Virus record (IMG/VR): IMGVR_UViG_3300048110_000198
Span: 1-62,605 of that record
Reading direction: 5' to 3' (one strand)
From: a virus
Length of the DNA stretch: 62,605 nucleotides
Below, in pieces: positions 1-50,303 of the stretch. The translations under genes were made by a program, and so were the position numbers. Below the pieces are notes generated by a model. That model made no database searches and was not told the DNA's origin. It was given only the letters and a program-made list of their open reading frames with translations. Within the stretch, counting starts at the first letter, position 1, and every line of letters begins with the position of its first letter.

Positions 1-715
1 GTTCAAACTTTTTCCATAACTCTATCACATCTTTCGATTTATATTTTAACTTTGAAAGATTTGTATTATACGATATATTAATATCAGTTCTACCTATTTC
101 TATCAAGTGTTCTAATATCTTGTAATGTTCATCCATAATAAGTGGTTCGCCACCAGCAAAGTATATTTGTTCAACAGTATCTATCCATTGGTTCATATCA
201 TCCCACAATTCAGTGATCGTATCTTTCACACGAAAGATTTTTGATTCTTTAGATGACCATCTACCTTGTGCAATTGCATCATCATACCACAATGAACTAA
301 ATTCTGGACCACATGACCTACATTTAAAGTTACAAATATTCGAAAACCTAATATCCATATAAGACATAAACACATCGTCTACACTACCATCTCTATTAGT
401 CAACTCTTTACGTTCGATATGATGCGAAAATGACTTGTTTGTATTCATCCGCATAGAAACTCCATTATTCTCTTCTATATCGTAACACTTTTTACAACCT
501 TCTGTTGGTTTATCATCTAGCATATTCTTACGCATGGTGCACATTTTTTCAGAGTTCCAAAGCTCTTTGAAACTCTTTTCATTTGTGTTACCTACTTTAT
601 ATTCATATGTCGATAGACAACACGGATAGGTATTACCATTCGCCCATACATGCATATGGATCCACGGTAATACACAGAAATGTTTTCCTGTATCGAATTT
701 TTGTTGCTTACTCAT
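1..715 (-). CDS. Radical SAM protein with N-terminal twitch domain (partial, 3' end outside window)
   Basis: The gene enters from the left edge; only its first 238 codons are here. The N-terminus has the twitch-type cysteines seen in its four neighbours: C14 in FCVLPW, C32-C33 in YPCC, then a CKKC pair. The radical SAM core follows, with the cluster motif CNFKCRSC near residue 128 and GGEP near residue 188. Radical SAM enzymes bind a 4Fe-4S cluster through CxxxCxxC and make a 5'-deoxyadenosyl radical; the substrate here is unknown. The start ATG at 715 overlaps the stop of the upstream radical SAM gene by 8 bases (ATGAGTAA), so the two are translationally coupled. It is the last visible gene of a 9.5-kb minus-strand operon. 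The family call is firm; the function is not. Confidence 0.88.
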   Translation of the reverse strand, partial: MSKQQKFDTGKHFCVLPWIHMHVWANGNTYPCCLSTYEYKVGNTNEKSFKELWNSEKMCTMRKNMLDDKPTEGCKKCYDIEENNGVSMRMNTNKSFSHHIERKELTNRDGSVDDVFMSYMDIRFSNICNFKCRSCGPEFSSLWYDDAIAQGRWSSKESKIFRVKDTITELWDDMNQWIDTVEQIYFAGGEPLIMDEHYKILEHLIEIGRTDINISYNTNLSKLKYKSKDVIELWKKFE

Positions 716-1958
716 TCTCAATCCAGTGAGGTTTGAATATTTCCCATAGTTCTGGGAATGTCTCACTGAAATTCTCACGTCTATATTTGTCAGCCCTATT
801 TGTTTCACGGACAAACGCATTCCAATCAGTGTCTTTTGATCTCGTCTTAACTTGATTTACTAATGGAGAAATCTCTTCATTGAATGTTTTTTCATCCCAT
901 TTAGGAAGTCCATATTTTTCTGGATTGATTATCTTGTCCAGGTACTGTTGCTTGATAGATTCTGGCATACAATTACTACTATAGAAGCTAGGGTAATGTA
1001 CTACATTATTGAATATCTTAAATTCTTTTCCTTTTGACTTAGATTCTGGATAAGTATCTCTGATTATTTGATGCATCTCTCTTATGTAATACATATTAAT
1101 TTGACTTAATGTAACTGTTATTCCCATAATGAATCTAGGATTTGAAATCATCAATTCAAAGAATTTATTTAAATTTTGTTCGACATTCGCCCAATTATTA
1201 CCATGACGCAAATAATCAAAATGTTCTCCGAATCCATCAATACTAAACTGTATTCCCAAGAAGTTAAAATTATCAAGAATTTTGTTTATTAATTTTTCGT
1301 TAAATATAGTACCATTTGAACTCATAGATATACTAATGTTCTTACTACTACCATTTGCAATTAATCGATCAATGAGAACTTCAAACTCTTTCATAAAGAA
1401 TGGTTCACCTCCCATGATTTCTAATCTAGCTACAGTCTTGCTCCACTCTTCGAAATCTTCCCAGAACTTACTGCCTATTTGTTGTTTATTAGTTGTTATG
1501 TTATTGAACGTTGCAGAATCTTCTCCAGTACTATCTTTATATTCTTTGATCCATTTTGTACTACAATACGGACTACATGTTCTACATTTTAGATTACATA
1601 TGTTACCAACGCCCAGTTGAATATCTTTCAAGAAGGTAGGTTCTGAATCATAATCAATTTTACCATGTAACTTTTCTGCTAATGTATTTTCATACATACG
1701 CTTACTATTTTTTCCGTTATTCTCATCGATCCAACATGTCTGACAATTTTTAGGCTGTTTACCCATTCTCATTTGCGCTCGTATATCACGCATACTTGAA
1801 CTGTTCATAATTGTAGTGAAACTATGATTCATTACATCAAGAAATTCACCATTGTCATCAATTTCATCTTTAGCAATACAACAACTGCGTACTCTACCAG
1901 TGGTATGTATACTAGTATGGATCCATGGCAATGAACATTTCACATCTTTTTGCATCAT
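708..1958 (-). CDS. Twitch-domain radical SAM protein
   Basis: A 416-residue member of the tandem radical SAM set. Twitch-type cysteines are C8 (CSLPW), C26-C27, C72 and C75. The radical SAM cluster motif is CNLKCRTC (C121, C125, C128), followed by MGGEPFF at about 182-188. A C-terminal NFSETFPE motif is shared with two neighbours. The N-terminal cysteine set probably holds a second iron-sulfur cluster, as in proteins annotated as twitch-domain radical SAM. Those twitch clusters often contact the substrate, which is commonly a peptide in SPASM/twitch enzymes, but nothing here identifies it. The ATG at 1958 overlaps the previous gene's TGA by 4 bases; a second ATG follows directly. Confidence 0.9.
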   Translation of the reverse strand: MMQKDVKCSLPWIHTSIHTTGRVRSCCIAKDEIDDNGEFLDVMNHSFTTIMNSSSMRDIRAQMRMGKQPKNCQTCWIDENNGKNSKRMYENTLAEKLHGKIDYDSEPTFLKDIQLGVGNICNLKCRTCSPYCSTKWIKEYKDSTGEDSATFNNITTNKQQIGSKFWEDFEEWSKTVARLEIMGGEPFFMKEFEVLIDRLIANGSSKNISISMSSNGTIFNEKLINKILDNFNFLGIQFSIDGFGEHFDYLRHGNNWANVEQNLNKFFELMISNPRFIMGITVTLSQINMYYIREMHQIIRDTYPESKSKGKEFKIFNNVVHYPSFYSSNCMPESIKQQYLDKIINPEKYGLPKWDEKTFNEEISPLVNQVKTRSKDTDWNAFVRETNRADKYRRENFSETFPELWEIFKPHWIENE

Positions 1959-3364
1959 ACTTCTCCTACTACTCTATCAAATCGTGTCCACCAAAGCCAT
2001 AGTTCAAAATCTAACTTATAGATATCTTCTAAGCGATATTGGTCTTGTCTAATTCTATCAAGTTGGTCTTGGTAACCTTTACCATGCTTAAACTTTTCTA
2101 TATATGTGTCTGGCCATTGTTCTGCAAATGTAGGACGCTTTTTCATTTCACGTAATGTATTGATTAGTGATGCCTGTTTACCAGTTGCAATAGGTTCCAT
2201 ATACTCTAGTAACTCATTAATCTTTCTGTCTAAGATTTTTCTAGGCCATGCAAATGGTGACATAACAATATCAGGATGAAACGCAAACATAATCTTTGTT
2301 TCCATACGTACATCTAGCTCTAGTGATAAGTCAAATAAATCTTTTAGTGAGAACATACCCGGACCAGTGATAGTCAAGTCAAATAACATTTTGTGTTTAC
2401 CGCCAGGTGCTGCTAGTCCAGTCTTGAAGTTCTCTAACCACTCTTCCCATACTATACCTTTGCGGATGAACTCTACAATATCACCAGTGCCATCGATTGA
2501 TGCACACATAAGCCAGTCTTTAAACTGCGGAAGATAATCGAATAGATGTTTTCCCTTGAAATCGATACGTGATAGATTAGAGTTATAGCGCAAATGACAA
2601 TTCTTTGCAGAACCGTTATTGACCATTTCTTCTAATGCCCACCAATGCATATCGTACATTAGCGGCTCGCCGCCCACCCAATAAATTTCTTCCACGATAC
2701 CATCAGAGATTGCTTTCTTAAATTCTGGTTCAGCAACATCTCTCTGGAACTTTTGCATCTTCTGTTTAACAGTTGGTTGCATAAAAGGTTGATTCTCAAC
2801 TGACCATAGACCATGTTTTTTCTTTTCAGCTTCCCACGCACTTGATAATTGCTCTCCGCACATGCGACACTTAAAGTTACATAAGTTTGAATAACGATAA
2901 TCAAACGAGATCGTAGGCATAGTTGTATGCCCATCATCATCTGTCTTATCAAACGCTTCTTGGATCTTATCTTTAAATAGAACACCAGTAAACCATTTGC
3001 GATATGAACTTAGAGATAGAGTGTCATCATTACATACATCACATTGTGGGATACGTTCTCCAGCCATTAACTTCTTACGAATGTCTTTCATATAAGGAGA
3101 GTTCCAATGTTCTTCTAGTGTCATCGGATTGAAGTCATCAGCATCAGTTTTAGAATCAGTTACCTCGCCGTAACGTTCATCATTTGATGCATCAATGTAC
3201 TGTTTCTGAAATGAATGTTCTTCACGTGATGCGCAACATAGTCTACGTTCACCTTGCGGTGAGATATAAGTATGTGACCAAGGTGCCATACAGAAGACTT
3301 TGTTTTCACTTTCTTCTGCACAACTTGCATCATCTTTCCATATCGGAATAATTTTATTTGTCAT
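1955..3364 (-). CDS. Twitch-domain radical SAM protein
   Basis: 469 residues. N-terminal cysteines are C25 (FCMAPW), C43-C44, C108 and C111. The radical SAM motif is CNFKCRMC (C162, C166, C169) and GGEPLMYD lies at 231-238. The CMAPW/CC/CDVC pattern puts it in the same subgroup as the two genes downstream of it, not with the two upstream, which have CHHPP or CYHPP in place of CC. It has a longer acidic insert (residues 55-80) between the CC pair and the WNS..M..IR segment. It is separated from the upstream gene by 23 bases and overlaps the downstream one by 4. Substrate unknown. Confidence 0.9.
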   Translation of the reverse strand: MTNKIIPIWKDDASCAEESENKVFCMAPWSHTYISPQGERRLCCASREEHSFQKQYIDASNDERYGEVTDSKTDADDFNPMTLEEHWNSPYMKDIRKKLMAGERIPQCDVCNDDTLSLSSYRKWFTGVLFKDKIQEAFDKTDDDGHTTMPTISFDYRYSNLCNFKCRMCGEQLSSAWEAEKKKHGLWSVENQPFMQPTVKQKMQKFQRDVAEPEFKKAISDGIVEEIYWVGGEPLMYDMHWWALEEMVNNGSAKNCHLRYNSNLSRIDFKGKHLFDYLPQFKDWLMCASIDGTGDIVEFIRKGIVWEEWLENFKTGLAAPGGKHKMLFDLTITGPGMFSLKDLFDLSLELDVRMETKIMFAFHPDIVMSPFAWPRKILDRKINELLEYMEPIATGKQASLINTLREMKKRPTFAEQWPDTYIEKFKHGKGYQDQLDRIRQDQYRLEDIYKLDFELWLWWTRFDRVVGEV

Positions 3365-3387
3365 ATTATAGATGCCTACTCATAAGT

Positions 3388-4962
3388 TTAATCTACTTTT
3401 ACACCACCAAGAGCATCATTTTCTGTATCCCAGCCGCCTACTTTTATCTTCTGTTCATGTTCATCATCACCAGTACTATATGCATCAGTTGTTGCAGGAT
3501 CGCCGCCTCGTAAAAGGTCTCCTTCAACTGCTAAGTTTGCACTAGACAAAACAAATGTTTTAGACTTAATTTCGTCTGCTGATGGAACGTCTGCTTCAAG
3601 CGTTTTATACCATTCTGCGATGGGTCCAGGGAATGTTTCAACAAAGTTCTTATTGCGTCTTACATCGAACTGTGTAAAGAATGCTTTGAAATCATGATAC
3701 AATTTATCTTGATCTGCTGTATTCTTATGTGGAGTTTTAACAATATCAAGATAGTCTATTAGTCTTTGTAAACTTGCTCTTTCACCTTCGTTAAGTTTGC
3801 CACCGTTGAGGAAGTGCCATGCTGATAACTTATTTTTATAATATGTTTTTACTTTCTCAGGTAGTATTGCCGCACTCTGGAATGATGGGAAGCGTAAAAT
3901 GTTTAGAGTCATAGTTGGCGCTCGTTCTCCATATTCTTTTCTAAGTTGTAACATCTCGTCCATGAACTCTGTAATAGTAGTCAAGCATAATGAATTAATT
4001 GTCATCATCATATGTAACTTCTGTACATTAGATTCTTTAAGAACACGGTGAATACTATTCATCCATAGATCATAATCTAGTCCATCACGTATATACTCAG
4101 CTTGTGTTTTTGCTGCTTCCATCGATGTGTAAATTTCAAAGTTCGGAACGTGCCAAGACTTTTCAATTAGCTTGTCTAATACTTTAGGAGTTTGTGGTGA
4201 TAAGTTACTATTAATAGCAAATCTCATATCACGGGCACGATCTGGATTCTTTTCAAACCAATCAAACAACTTCCAAGTTCCTGTATGCATGATAGGTTCA
4301 CCACCAGTAATACGAATTTCTTCTAAGTTGTCGGCAAGATCACTTTCCCACCATTCATGGAATGCTTTGATGAATGGATTGTCTTCTGCTTTTCTTGCTG
4401 CTGGTTCTGCCCATGGAGCTGTATCGACAAAGTGGCCTCTACCATCTGACTTGATATTTTGATAAGCGCCATAGTCATTGATATCTTTGACCCATGCAGT
4501 TGAGAATGCTGGGTTACAGTAAGTACATTTTAGATTACATGCTCTATCAAATGAAATTTCAAGTGTACGTAGTTGTACATTTTCATCCCATGGCATTTCC
4601 ATACTAGCATCTAAGTCTTCATCTTTGAAGATTTCAGTTTTGAATACACGGTCAGAGATATGATCTTTTCCCATGTCTTCAACTTTCCAACAATATTCAC
4701 ATTCTGCTGGACGCTTACCTTCCTGCATTTGCTTACGCATAAGTTTCTTATGCTTTGTGTTGTGAATTGCAGTTGGATTATCTTTCAATTCTTCAAGTGG
4801 AATCCAATGTCCTGGCGGGTGGTGACAACTGGCAGTTTGACCATGCCCTAACCAGATAGTAGCATTAAACCATTTTGCACCACAATAACTTTCGCTCTTA
4901 TTATCAATCATACGTGCTTTATACGCATGAAGAGTTTCAGCTTCCCAATGTTTACGACCCAT
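3388..4962 (-). CDS. Twitch-type radical SAM protein, CHHPP subtype
   Basis: 524 residues from the start chosen here. The reading frame is open back to an ATG at 4992, but the ATG at 4962 has an AAGAGG ribosome site about 8 bases upstream and leaves only an 11-base overlap with the previous gene. From this start the N-terminal cysteines are C27, C46 (in SCHHPP), C88 and C91; the radical SAM cysteines are C142, C146 and C149 (CNLKCTYC), with GGEP downstream. The C-terminal NFVETFPG motif matches its neighbours. Beyond it is a roughly 70-residue acidic, glycine-containing tail that the paralogs lack. The CHHPPxHxIPLxEL segment defines a subtype shared with the gene upstream. Confidence 0.88.
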   Translation of the reverse strand: MGRKHWEAETLHAYKARMIDNKSESYCGAKWFNATIWLGHGQTASCHHPPGHWIPLEELKDNPTAIHNTKHKKLMRKQMQEGKRPAECEYCWKVEDMGKDHISDRVFKTEIFKDEDLDASMEMPWDENVQLRTLEISFDRACNLKCTYCNPAFSTAWVKDINDYGAYQNIKSDGRGHFVDTAPWAEPAARKAEDNPFIKAFHEWWESDLADNLEEIRITGGEPIMHTGTWKLFDWFEKNPDRARDMRFAINSNLSPQTPKVLDKLIEKSWHVPNFEIYTSMEAAKTQAEYIRDGLDYDLWMNSIHRVLKESNVQKLHMMMTINSLCLTTITEFMDEMLQLRKEYGERAPTMTLNILRFPSFQSAAILPEKVKTYYKNKLSAWHFLNGGKLNEGERASLQRLIDYLDIVKTPHKNTADQDKLYHDFKAFFTQFDVRRNKNFVETFPGPIAEWYKTLEADVPSADEIKSKTFVLSSANLAVEGDLLRGGDPATTDAYSTGDDEHEQKIKVGGWDTENDALGGVKVD

Positions 4963-6520
4963 ATTTTGCCTCTTTTTCTTCTTTTGCTTCATTCCAGAAG
5001 TCTGTCATTTCAGGAAATGTTTCTAAGAAATTTAGTCCTCTGCGCTTATCATACTCAGTGAAATAATCATAGAAACGAATTAACCTGTCACTTAATTCAT
5101 TGTCACTCATATTTAGTCCTTCTTTAGCCCATGCTAAATCTCTTTCGAGTTTTAGAACTTCATAATTCTTAAAGCCTGTATACTTGCGACCATACAAATC
5201 ATTTGGTAATACATTTGCTTTCATGTAGTCAATATTCTGTTGAATAGTATCAAGCATAATAGGGTCTGCTAACTGAATAGTCATCCAGTCTGGATAACGA
5301 AGGTATGGAATATCAAACCATACACGCTGTCGTTTTTTTCTTACAAACTCAGGATGCTTAAATCCATTTCGGTCGGGAGGCTGAATAACTTTGTCTTCTT
5401 GATTCTCATAGCCAAACTCTTCACGTAGCTTTAGAATCATATCCAAGAAACCACGTAAGTTTGGTATACTTAGGAGAGTAAAAGTGTTAATAAATGAAAT
5501 CTCTGTACCATCTGTTTCAGATAATACTCGACGGCAATTTTCATACATCGTATCAAAATCAAGACCATCACGCAGATATTCAGCCTGTTTCCCAACACTG
5601 TCTACACTTACATATAAACTAAAATGTTTACATGCTGGTGCAACATACCAGTGATTGCCGCTATCAGGATTGAAACGTTCTGGATCTTCCCAAACACGGA
5701 CTTCTTCTAACTTCTTAATCTTATCAATGAACTTATCCATCAACGCAGGTTGTGGCGGTGCCATGTTAGACGTAATACTCAAGTCTAAGAATGCATTTGG
5801 ATTTTCATTGACGTAATCTAATACTTTGAACGTATTCTTATCCATGAGAGGTTCACCGCCTGTCATACGAAATACTTTCAAGTCTTTATATGTTTCTGGA
5901 AACCACTTCCAGAATGCTTCGATATATGGATTATCTTTACGTGCAACTTCAAGTGGCATCATGCCAGTCTTACGTAAGTAATCAATATCATTATGTCCAG
6001 TACCATTTGAGAAGCGGAAGCCACCATGCTTCTTAATATCATCTTCCCATGCTGTACTAAGATGCGGAGAACAATAAGAACACTTTAAGTTACACGCTTG
6101 ATTGAAGTTTACTTCAACATAACGTGGCTTGATATCGTGATCCCATGGTTGAGTTACTACTTCGTCCCATGCTTCTTTAACCCACCATTCACTTGAACGA
6201 TAGTGTCTGTCACTCAGTCTTCCTTCTTTAGGAGCATTGGGTGCGTCTTCTACGTTCCAGCAGTATTGACAACCTTCAGGTCGTTGTCCCTCTTTCATCT
6301 GCTTGCGTTCTTGTAGTTTGAACTGTGTGTTATGAAGAGCGTTAGGGTTCTTCTTTAGTTCATCTAGTGGAATAGCATGTGTAGGTGGGTGATAACAACT
6401 ATGTGTACGACCTTGAGGCAGATGCAAACTTACTTGCAACCACTTCGCCATACACATTGAAGGTGATAGTGCGTTTAATTTCTGACGTGTAGCTTGCGCA
6501 TCATCATCGTAGTTCGACAT
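4952..6520 (-). CDS. Twitch-type radical SAM protein, CYHPP subtype
   Basis: 522 residues, first of the five radical SAM genes in the operon. N-terminal cysteines are C23 (MCMAKW), C42 (SCYHPP), C84 and C87; the radical SAM motif is CNLKCSYC (C143, C147, C150), followed by MTGGEPLM. The C-terminus has NFLETFPE. It is the closest paralog of the next gene: both have HxIPLxELKxNPxAxHNT after the CxHPP motif. The start overlaps the glycosyltransferase stop as TAATG, so translation is coupled. A shared polypeptide substrate with the glycosyltransferases is an attractive guess, but no candidate precursor is obvious. Confidence 0.9.
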   Translation of the reverse strand: MSNYDDDAQATRQKLNALSPSMCMAKWLQVSLHLPQGRTHSCYHPPTHAIPLDELKKNPNALHNTQFKLQERKQMKEGQRPEGCQYCWNVEDAPNAPKEGRLSDRHYRSSEWWVKEAWDEVVTQPWDHDIKPRYVEVNFNQACNLKCSYCSPHLSTAWEDDIKKHGGFRFSNGTGHNDIDYLRKTGMMPLEVARKDNPYIEAFWKWFPETYKDLKVFRMTGGEPLMDKNTFKVLDYVNENPNAFLDLSITSNMAPPQPALMDKFIDKIKKLEEVRVWEDPERFNPDSGNHWYVAPACKHFSLYVSVDSVGKQAEYLRDGLDFDTMYENCRRVLSETDGTEISFINTFTLLSIPNLRGFLDMILKLREEFGYENQEDKVIQPPDRNGFKHPEFVRKKRQRVWFDIPYLRYPDWMTIQLADPIMLDTIQQNIDYMKANVLPNDLYGRKYTGFKNYEVLKLERDLAWAKEGLNMSDNELSDRLIRFYDYFTEYDKRRGLNFLETFPEMTDFWNEAKEEKEAKYGS

Positions 6521-10201: not shown

Positions 10202-10230
10202 ATTATATAGAATTATTAGAGAAATGTCAA
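10202..10230 (-). promoter_or_regulatory. Sigma70-type promoter of the glycosyltransferase / radical SAM operon
   Basis: On the minus strand TTGACA (10230-10225) is followed by exactly 17 bases and TATAAT (10207-10202), both boxes perfect. An inverted repeat TTCTAT-TAT-ATAGAA (10198-10212) surrounds the -10 box and may be an operator. Host RNA polymerase should use this promoter early in infection, unlike the late promoters of the adjacent structural genes. Confidence 0.88.
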
Positions 10231-26778: not shown

Positions 26779-27477
26779 ATGAAACGAGTAGGTATATTAG
26801 GATCAAGTTTTTCAGTAGGATGCCATCATAATTCAAACACAAAGCAAAATGATTTAGCACTACCATTCGAAACTTGGCTTTACAAGCACACAACAGATAT
26901 AGAATTTTATAATTCAGCATGTTCTGGAAAGGGCACTGAACTATATCTAAACAAGATTGTTTACTTAAAAAAGAAATATAATATTGATACTATTTTGATG
27001 GAGCTTGTTAACAACCGTTCTATGCTTAACATGAAAACACAAGATTACGACTTAGATAATATCACTGATGATCTATATGAGAATAGTGCATCTATCTGGA
27101 ACTACATAAGAGCTATAACACAAGACATTAACTATGAAAAGTTTGCAACCAAACGTGATTTTAACACTTGGAAATCGGTACAAGAAAGCATAGCATATAA
27201 CTTCAATGCATTTGAGTATTGGGGAGTGTTAGATTGTAAGCAATCTATCGAATTATGCGAGTTGTTAGATATAAAAGTTGTTACATGGCAGAAAAGTTTT
27301 GATTTCAGAGAACATATAACACAAACTGTTAAATTTTCAGATTTTGCTAATGCACACGAATATTACGTTGACAAGTATGATGAAAAGTCAATACTATGCG
27401 ACCATGTACACTTCAATGATAAGATAAACGAAGAAATGATTAGAGATTTTATCGTCCCTGCACTAATTAATACTTGA
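26779..27477 (+). CDS. SGNH/GDSL-like hydrolase
   Basis: 232 residues. GILGSSFSVG at the N-terminus is the block I GDS(L)-type nucleophile site with serine 10, and CDHVHFND near residue 212 is the block V D-x-x-H pair. The strand ILMELVNNRS may supply block III. Enzymes of this type hydrolyse esters, including O-acetyl groups on polysaccharides; in a phage this could serve receptor or capsule deacetylation, but there is no signal peptide or fibre domain. It stands alone between divergent late operons and has no ribosome site, in line with a leaderless mRNA. Confidence 0.7.
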   Translation: MKRVGILGSSFSVGCHHNSNTKQNDLALPFETWLYKHTTDIEFYNSACSGKGTELYLNKIVYLKKKYNIDTILMELVNNRSMLNMKTQDYDLDNITDDLYENSASIWNYIRAITQDINYEKFATKRDFNTWKSVQESIAYNFNAFEYWGVLDCKQSIELCELLDIKVVTWQKSFDFREHITQTVKFSDFANAHEYYVDKYDEKSILCDHVHFNDKINEEMIRDFIVPALINT

Positions 27478-27502
27478 CAAACCTATTTCTTCTATGTATA
27501 AT
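27474..27502 (+). promoter_or_regulatory. Sigma70-type promoter for the coiled-coil / ClpP pair
   Basis: TTGACA (27474-27479), 17 bases, TATAAT (27497-27502), all consensus. The -35 box overlaps the TGA of the SGNH gene. The next gene starts 27 bases after the -10 box with an AAAGGAG ribosome site. Confidence 0.88.
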
Positions 27503-27528
27503 GAATATAACGATAAAGGAGATTTACA

Positions 27529-27765
27529 TTGACAGATGATGAGAATGTAATAAATTTATCTGAGTTTTTAAAGGAAGATATTCCAATAGAATTCAGTATG
27601 AGCTATCCTGCGTTTAGAATAGACCAGGACTTACATGCAGAAAGTGAAATTGCACTGTTGAAAAAAGCGGTTGCATCTTTACAGAAACAAGTGTATGATG
27701 GGTATAAGCGAATCATGGAACTTAATGAAGAGCTAGAAAAACTTAAAAATGAAAATGAGGAATAA
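27529..27765 (+). CDS. Small coiled-coil protein upstream of ClpP
   Basis: 78 residues from a TTG start supported by AAAGGAGAT 7-10 bases upstream; no in-frame ATG fits. The N-terminal half is acidic; the C-terminal half is a heptad-like helix ([16 protein letters not shown] through [11 protein letters not shown]) that should form a coiled coil. It is two bases from the clpP start, so it is co-expressed with it. It could be an adaptor or substrate-delivery partner for the protease, but small coiled-coil proteins with other roles are common in these phages. Confidence 0.8.
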
Positions 27766-27767
27766 TA

Positions 27768-28394
27768 ATGCCTAATCTAGTACCAATGGTCGTAGACCAA
27801 TCAGCAAACGGAGAGCGAAGTTATGATATCTTTTCACGTCTTCTAAAAGAACGTGTGGTGTTTCTAACTGGTGAAGTCAATGATTATCAAGCAGACTTGC
27901 TTTGCGCACAATTGCTGTTCTTGGAAGCCGAAAACCCAGACAAAGATATTCACTTTTATATCAACTCACCTGGTGGTGCAGTGACATCAGGTCTTGCTAT
28001 CTATGATACAATGCAGTTTATCAAACCCGATGTTTCTACTACTGTTATCGGGCAAGCATGTTCAATGGGATCATTCTTGGCGATGGCTGGATCAGCGGGA
28101 AAACGTTATGTTCTACCTAACTCTCGTACAATGGTTCACCGTGTATCAAGTGGTACACGTGGTACTGGTGGTTCTGTGTATGTACAAGAACTTGAGATGG
28201 AAGATAATATTCGTCACTTTGAGGAATCAAAGAACATCAACAAACGTTTGACTGAATTATATGTTCAACACAATTCTAAAGGTAAAACATTCGAAGAGTT
28301 AGAAGCCACAATGAAGTTTGACACATTTATGACTGCGGACGATGCAGTTGAATATGGTCTTGCTGATATGATGATTTCAGAACGTCCAGCTTAA
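27768..28394 (+). CDS. clpP: ClpP-like serine protease
   Basis: 208 residues. Catalytic residues are visible: S99 in GQACSMGS, H124 in RTMVHR, and D185 in [23 protein letters not shown] (65-70) is the oxyanion strand. Compared with E. coli ClpP, there are about 12 extra residues between the histidine and aspartate, mostly in the handle-helix region after H124. ClpP forms a double-heptamer chamber and needs an AAA+ unfoldase, which is not in the window; it may borrow the host ClpA/ClpX or mix with host ClpP. A separate prohead protease (gp21) is present, so ClpP is unlikely to do capsid maturation. Expression is from a sigma70-type promoter. The gene runs 4 bases into the convergent lysozyme-like gene. 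Confidence 0.93.
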
Positions 28395-29023
28395 AAGCCA
28401 GGTACGTAACTCCACATTTTAGCAGTTCTAATCTTAATAGCGGCGAGGTGTTCATCCACTTTTCCGCTATTTCTTTTTATGTTATTTTGAATTTCATCTG
28501 TAATACGATACCAACGTTTCATGTTTATAAGTTCAATGATTGGACTAGTTTCGATCTTATCAACTCCTATATTATAAAAGTAATAAAGTAACGCATCGAA
28601 TTGACTTTGTGATAGTGGTTCTTTAACAAACTGTTCTAAAACATTTCCTATACTTCTAAGTTGTTTTTCTAAAAGAAATATAGCGGCATCTTTAGTTATT
28701 TTACTTTGTGTTATATCAATTCTATTAGATGCAACAGTGATATAACCATACCTACGTTCTACATCTGTAATAGTATAGTCATACCCTATCTTATCACCTG
28801 TTATCTCTAGGATAGGCTCAAAGTTTTCAATAACAGCGTTCTTACTGATACTAGAAAATACAATATCATTTACTGCAAATGTTTTAACTTTCACATGTGA
28901 TAGAATATGTTTAGGAATATTAGAGTCGTAGCTCAAACCTATATATGTACCATTAGGTGTAACAACATTTAATGGACGTTGTATGTAATTTAGTAATGAG
29001 CCTGGTTTCTTATCATATATCAT
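28391..29023 (-). CDS. Lysozyme-fold (GH24-like) baseplate-operon protein, probably degenerate
   Basis: 210 residues. The C-terminal half ([11 protein letters not shown] through [18 protein letters not shown]) matches the helical lobe of GH24 phage lysozymes. The N-terminal lobe, where the catalytic Glu and the D/T pair should sit in E-x8-D-x5-T form, is replaced by [19 protein letters not shown] and is hard to align, so activity is doubtful. It is last in the late operon gp48-gp53-hub-spike and overlaps the spike gene by 4 bases. A structural or peptidoglycan-binding role is more likely than cutting. Confidence 0.6.
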
Positions 29024-36384: not shown

Positions 36385-36413
36385 TTGACATTGATAATTT
36401 TAAGTAGTATAAT
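36385..36413 (+). promoter_or_regulatory. Sigma70-type promoter for the gp55-gp47-gp46 operon
   Basis: TTGACA (36385-36390), 17 bases, TATAAT (36408-36413). An ATTAGGAG ribosome site and the gp55 ATG follow within 25 bases. Use of the host-type promoter fits a gene that must be made before late transcription. Confidence 0.9.
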
Positions 36414-49650: not shown

Positions 49651-49673
49651 TTTAATTCTATTTGGAGAAACCA

Positions 49674-50303
49674 ATGACCGTTCTTATTGAAAGATTTTCA
49701 CACAGTCAAGCAGGTGTTAAAACTCGCATTGTCGAAGGTGAAGACGGTGGAAAAAACATGTTTATGGAAGGTATTTTCGTCCAAGGTGGCGTTAAGAATG
49801 CTAACCAGCGTGTTTACCCGGTTTCAGAAATCTCAAGAGCAGTAGAAAGCGTTCAGAAAAAAATCTCTGAAGGCTTCCCTGTTCTAGGTGAATGTGATCA
49901 TCCACCGGAATTAACAGTAAACGTTGACCGTGTGTCACATATTATTGAAAATATGTGGATGGACGGACCAAACGGCTATGGTAAACTTAAAATTGTTCCT
50001 ACACCAATGGGTAACATCATCAGAACACTAATCGAATCAGGCGCTACTTTAGGTGTCTCATCTCGTGGTTCAGGCGAAGTTGGTAATGATGGTAACGTGA
50101 GTAACTTTGAGATTGTAACTGTAGATATCGTAGCTCAACCGAGTGCGCCAGAAGCGTACCCAAAAGCGATCTACGAAGGATTAATGAACATGAAAGGCGG
50201 CTATCAAACTTGGCAGCTTGCTCAAAGTGTTCAAAACGACAAGTCGGCACAAAAGTACTTGTCAGAAGAAATAGTAAAGTTCATTCGTGAACTTAAACTG
50301 TAA
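49674..50303 (+). CDS. 21: Prohead core protease gp21
   Basis: 209 residues from the ATG at 49674, which has TTTGGAG 7-10 bases upstream; the frame is open to a TTG at 49662. It is about the length of T4 gp21 (212). FPVLGECDHP carries the catalytic histidine and TLGVSSRGSGEV the serine of the herpesvirus-like S77 protease fold. gp21 cleaves scaffold and capsid proteins during head maturation. It sits between the core and scaffold genes, in T4 order. Confidence 0.93.
   Translation: MTVLIERFSHSQAGVKTRIVEGEDGGKNMFMEGIFVQGGVKNANQRVYPVSEISRAVESVQKKISEGFPVLGECDHPPELTVNVDRVSHIIENMWMDGPNGYGKLKIVPTPMGNIIRTLIESGATLGVSSRGSGEVGNDGNVSNFEIVTVDIVAQPSAPEAYPKAIYEGLMNMKGGYQTWQLAQSVQNDKSAQKYLSEEIVKFIRELKL

Follow-up and report, generated by a model that had tools for sequence, protein, structure and literature searches.

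Proteolytic Clp components are known from several phages: ClpP, ClpX, ClpA and ClpS have been described in jumbo phages, as far as the available text of two reports goes (PMC6102473, PMC7824862), and Agrobacterium phage Atu_ph07 carries a ClpP together with ClpX, ClpA and ClpS in the same manner (available text of PMC6102473). For a freshwater phage, the accessible part of PMC5964084 discusses ClpP as a possible prohead protease. Within ClpP itself, the available text of PMC9035409 assigns the sensor residues, the QXT motif and the glutamine of the HQP motif to a common network, on which both the cohesion of the two rings and the active state depend.

Here we describe a ClpP from the virus record IMGVR_UViG_3300048110_000198, which is 62.6 kb long and may be a fragment; this whole stretch of 62,605 nucleotides is called the window. 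The protein has the fold, the triad, the axial loop and most docking-cleft residues in common with bacterial ClpP (E. coli, Francisella, Rhodanobacter). The best bacterial match, among the best 80 matches listed, reaches 63%, and the best PDB matches are ClpPs. The phage form differs from the bacterial one by 12 additional residues between the catalytic His and Asp, by HRV instead of HQP, by KF instead of the D/E-R sensor, and by the lack of a propeptide. Pseudomonas phage PA5oct and its kin (Arenbergviridae), the only relatives with the insert found in the phages collection, have a ClpP of 60% identity with the insert, HRA and KF, but in another gene context and with no abutting coiled-coil gene in the annotation. 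The ClpP of Atu_ph07, in contrast, shows the usual HQP and ER and no insert in the handle. In some cyanobacterial and plastid ClpR proteins an insert occurs at a comparable position. ClpR is without the triad (available text of PMC9319218), whereas the triad is complete here, which rules out that the protein is a ClpR.

By its PHROG matches the phage is of the T4 type: the window encodes baseplate wedge and hub proteins, a gp55-type late sigma factor, SbcC/SbcD-type proteins (gp46/47), a portal, a gp21-type head protease and a major head protein. The clpP region lies on the plus strand, and the baseplate genes on either side run on the opposite strand. Its features are, in order:

26779-27477, plus strand: gene of a 232-aa upstream neighbour, without Pfam or PHROG match at E <0.05
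27474-27502, plus strand: sigma70-type promoter, -35 TTGACA, 17-nt spacer, -10 TATAAT, zero mismatches; the arrangement recurs in relatives
27515-27521, plus strand: Shine-Dalgarno sequence AAAGGAG of the coiled-coil gene, from the sequence
27529-27765, plus strand: 78-aa coiled-coil protein with a TTG start, identified by ORF, AlphaFold, purifying selection and homologues
27757-27762, plus strand: Shine-Dalgarno sequence GAGGAA for clpP, lying within the final part of the coiled-coil gene, from the sequence
27768-28394, plus strand: insert-type ClpP, 208 aa, starting at the mature N-terminus (MPNLVPMV) without propeptide; Pfam Clp_protease (PF00574), E 1.1e-63
28391-29023, minus strand: phage lysozyme-domain protein (domain match), a convergent neighbour that serves as marker of the locus

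The initial annotation had described a full-triad ClpP with about 12 extra residues near the handle, paired with a TTG-start coiled-coil ORF, equipped with its own sigma70-type promoter and placed among tail genes; all of this is borne out. Elsewhere in the window, at 708-6520 (minus strand), three radical-SAM-type ORFs lie near one another, and in one relative (L016) clpP is flanked by ORFs that look radical-SAM-like by eye.

Within clpP the following positions are of interest:

28062-28064, plus strand: catalytic Ser99 of the triad S99/H124/D185
28137-28145, plus strand: catalytic His124, followed by RV where QP is usual, from sequence comparison
28188-28217, plus strand: ten extra handle residues, 141-150, conserved, placed by MAFFT
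28272-28277, plus strand: two extra residues past the long handle helix, placed by MAFFT
28314-28322, plus strand: KF where the oligomerization sensor would be, followed by catalytic Asp185, from sequence comparison

Both the PF00574 profile match and the fold identify the protein as a ClpP, and the Ser-His-Asp triad is present; absent are the HQP motif and the D/E-R oligomerization sensor, which a ClpP usually has without being defined by them. The AlphaFold monomer model has a long handle helix at 137-168, with a weak start of the handle (pLDDT 62-77). Its best match among solved ClpPs is 5g1r (Z 29.4, rmsd 1.5 Å over 192 residues), and a structure search with the insert piece found no matching solved structure. 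L23, Y62, F82, L114, R22, D78 and R15 are kept at positions of the AAA+ docking cleft, as we presume them to be, and of the axial loop, and the cleft differs by Y60 to H, I90 to T, M92 to I, F112 to Y and L189 to I. As viral ClpPs mostly begin at the mature N-terminus, a propeptide does not seem to be needed.

The separation of the catalytic His and Asp is 60 residues in the window and 48 in bacterial ClpPs, ten of the additional residues falling in the handle and two after the long helix. A spacing of 60 is found in 105 viral loci (repeat copies of contigs included; 75 unique sequences) and in PA5oct. The best 80 bacterial ClpPs have 48; four further phages-collection entries and one viral relative, L022, have 48 or 50. 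The spacing does not change alone. The handle insert, HR[VA] and K[FYH] occur together in 106/106 insert-type proteins (the 105 viral loci and PA5oct), while HQP and [DENQ]R are the motifs of 85/85 proteins without the insert; both sets were chosen by similarity to the query, and proteins below 38% identity to it were removed before counting. Since every insert-type protein has the altered motifs and all others the usual ones, the handle insert and the ring-ring network appear to have changed as a block.

Across the 75 unique viral sequences R125, V126, S127, S128, G129, T130, Q140, E145, D146, R149 and E153 are 100% conserved. None of the best 80 matches in a whole-protein scan of bacterial genome contigs has the insert, nor did a search for it in 299 genomes of one phylum, a set without a positive control, return anything at E 1e-8. 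We found no description of an insert-type viral ClpP with a coupled interface change in the literature searched. Judged by these alignments, the ring-interface block has been exchanged, while the triad and the axial loop have remained unchanged, as has the docking cleft for the most part.

The block can be traced separately from the upstream gene. The ClpP of L022 is identical to that of the window at 115/122 positions over residues 1-122 and then at only 37/74; it is without the insert, has HQP and ER, and is still preceded by the partner gene. Likewise, the non-insert ClpP of L225/L226 adjoins a partner of the L014 type. Because non-insert ClpPs are paired with a coiled-coil gene in these cases, the interface block moves independently of the partner, and the insert is not needed at the clpP locus, as L022 and L226 do without it. 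In another relative, L003, ClpP is 99% identical to that of the window and its neighbours only 52% and 64%, reflecting either strong constraint or recent transfer.

The promoter is a perfect one. TTGACA-N17-TATAAT occurs three times in the window, where 0.06 sites are expected, and 0/100 shuffles reach three. The two other perfect sites are at 10202-10230 (minus strand) and 36385-36413 (plus strand), and the latter precedes the sigma factor and the gp46/47-type genes. The T4-type late promoter TATAAATA is not enriched in the window (5 found, 8.6 expected). When 17 loci, including that of the window, were checked against a control of shuffled two-base blocks, 11 had, before clpP or before the pair, a promoter with a 17-nt spacer and at least 11/12 matches; those without were L003, L007-L009, L014 and L015. 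As the perfect site at 36385-36413 precedes the sigma factor and gp46/47-type genes, it is a fair inference from promoter type that expression of the clpP unit is of early or middle type.

The coiled-coil ORF is a real gene, as indicated by dN/dS of 0.06-0.25 in 6/7 pairs (0.47 in the closest pair); for clpP the values are 0.015 to 0.14 in the 6/7 pairs that could be computed. AlphaFold gives the 78-aa protein one confident helix at 37-77 and a loose N-terminus. Its homologues have 60-146 aa, with the coil as the main common part and N-terminal parts that differ widely. The longer ones have, by eye, a QxxMF motif near the N-terminus that is presumably clamp-binding-like and that is absent from the protein of the window.

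How tightly is this gene tied to clpP? The 53 lysozyme-marked loci reduce to 21 distinct ClpP-partner combinations, of which 20 are assessable (in L181, which was excluded, the ClpP ORF is short, seemingly cut by the contig end). The coiled-coil gene abuts clpP in 18/20 of them, or in 17/19 if L011/L222, a cut copy of L010, is merged with it. At two loci, L052 and L067, clpP stands at the same place without the coiled-coil gene, and the promoter lies 71 nt before clpP. The initial annotation proposed a functional pair, an idea that relatives keeping clpP alone would make unlikely. It is partly supported: the frequent adjacency holds, but L052 and L067 are such relatives, though the coiled-coil protein may still act as an adaptor in the phages that have it.

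Members of the wider ClpP family at other loci are preceded by different genes. A blast of the partner against 80 wider loci gave 13 matches at E ≤0.1, all at the lysozyme-marked locus; the homologues in L003 and L006 were recognised by position. A similar coil is encoded on L227, a contig of 4.2 kb with no ClpP on it. With 18/20 pairs on one side and L052, L067 and L227 on the other, the linkage is strong but not obligatory. The coiled-coil protein is thus an accessory of the locus, a frequent neighbour and not a fixed or needed partner.

Other arrangements upstream of clpP were seen as well. Another phage group (L018, L019, L034, L060, L062, L079) shares a small ORF of a different kind directly before clpP, in which GPF and RE motifs can be made out by eye. 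In L024 (3954-4783) a ClpS and an ORF that looks small heat-shock-like by eye are directly upstream of it. L171 (CAKLQH020000005.1), whose label is Acinetobacter phage, has a tig-clpP-clpX region of bacterial type and is probably a mislabelled contig.

An explanation that we take seriously, without favouring it, is that the coiled-coil gene serves as a leader cistron or is a bystander, whose stop-codon region holds the ribosome site of clpP and would couple translation of the two. The AAGGA of that site lies within the last codons and partly accounts for the shared C-terminal NTR[KT][FY], while protein sizes of 60-146 aa and highly variable N-terminal parts would also suit a leader. Against it, a dN/dS below 0.25 in 6/7 pairs indicates that the protein sequence matters. 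We had considered NTR[KT][FY] as a docking tail resembling that of proteasome activators; this was dropped, as the ribosome site occupies those codons and the tail is absent in the window and in the L005 and L014 types.

Which ATPase would serve this ClpP? As the initial annotation had noted, the window encodes no Clp ATPase: no AAA_2 domain was found in its 62.6 kb, which may be a fragment. Nor was a Clp ATPase found in the 137 kb relative G007. The 39 records of the wider family include a ClpB_D2-small domain in 16/39 and ClpS in 18/39. Ten of the 39, from the clpP locus and up to 137 kb long, all of them possible fragments, have no ClpB_D2-small, ClpS or AAA_2. Two long records, one of 342 kb and one of 246 kb, carry the pair of the L010 type. 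Each encodes a ClpS and a ClpX of 412 aa whose N-terminus is of the zinc-binding type and which has an IGF loop; on the 342 kb record there is in addition a ClpA-type protein of 741 aa, likewise with an IGF loop. The earlier suggestion that the partner replaces the ATPase is ruled out by these two members, G045 and G046, in which the partner is found together with a ClpX-type AAA+ of the phage's own. For the virus of the window, these other members suggest a phage ATPase.

The same data bear on whether phage ClpP takes the place of host ClpP, or competes with it, on the ClpX or ClpA of the host, redirecting host proteolysis. In favour, the docking residues are mostly kept and no ATPase is found in the window or in the 137 kb G007; but G045 and G046 carry their own ATPases, and absence in fragments weighs little. 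We regard this as rather unlikely.

Still less probable is a dedicated adaptor or tether, feeding substrates to phage or host ClpXP or ClpAP, which was the first idea of the initial annotation. A phage model for such a role is SPO1 Gp53, an adaptor-like protein acting on host ClpC; it differs in being 25 kDa, and the coiled-coil protein is likened to it by description (available text of PMC6873191). The adjacency in 18/20 pairs, the often overlapping TAATG between the two genes, and purifying selection on a gene that evolves faster than clpP are what an adaptor might show. It is nevertheless missing in L052 and L067, its coil recurs in L227 without ClpP, the wider ClpP relatives have other upstream genes, and the protein is unrelated to ClpS, with no match to PF02617 at E up to 1.

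Finally, ClpP as a head maturation protease, the label of its best PHROG, is very improbable and was rejected, since a gp21-type protease (phrog_207, E 3.3e-61) at 49662-50303, between portal and major head protein, fills that place in the head block, and clpP is a separate unit on the strand opposite to the baseplate genes.

The reading that we somewhat prefer is that of an early-type unit in a T4-type phage, with a ClpP whose ring interface has been exchanged and which would be driven by an AAA+ protein, the coiled coil being an accessory. A strong host-type promoter would drive the small coiled-coil gene and the ClpP peptidase, antisense to the baseplate genes. As the triad, the axial loop and most docking-cleft residues are kept, ClpP should form the peptidase barrel and accept substrates from an AAA+ unfoldase with an IGF loop, which may be a phage ClpX or ClpA encoded beyond the fragment or that of the host. 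The ring-ring contact, made up of handle, HQP motif and oligomerization sensor, would have been replaced as one block, and the exchanged interface should let phage rings pair among themselves rather than with the ClpP of the host, or alter the on/off control by the sensor. The purpose would be early turnover of host or phage proteins. In all, the insert-type ClpP reads as a virus class with an altered ring interface, whose synthesis is probably early and whose ATPase would be a ClpX or ClpA of phage or host; the best explanation is a ClpP that would work with IGF-loop ATPases but assemble on its own terms.

Some records encode a second ClpP-like protein without axial-loop motif and without insert. 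It is present in L035, L040, L050, L065, L078, L080 and L081, with the S, H and D triad positions kept in all seven, and also in G045 (C1:213393-213911) and G046 (C1:46270-46788). Its gene adjoins clpP in L078 and L081; in the remaining five L loci it is found some 2 kb upstream. A two-component phage ClpP is possible.

More tentatively, the rebuilt interface may let phage rings pair only together, or with the second phage ClpP of some records, and so escape sensor-based host control; large T4-type and jumbo aquatic phages would then possess a Clp machine of their own, with the fast-evolving coil as a regulator peculiar to one lineage. How ClpP rings pair and are controlled allosterically is a core question of Clp biology and matters for drugs directed at ClpP. 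A natural class in which handle, HQP motif and sensor are exchanged together would offer a direct test of the contacts that make and switch the double ring, and it indicates that a large, mostly uncultured set of phages may carry its own regulated proteolysis.
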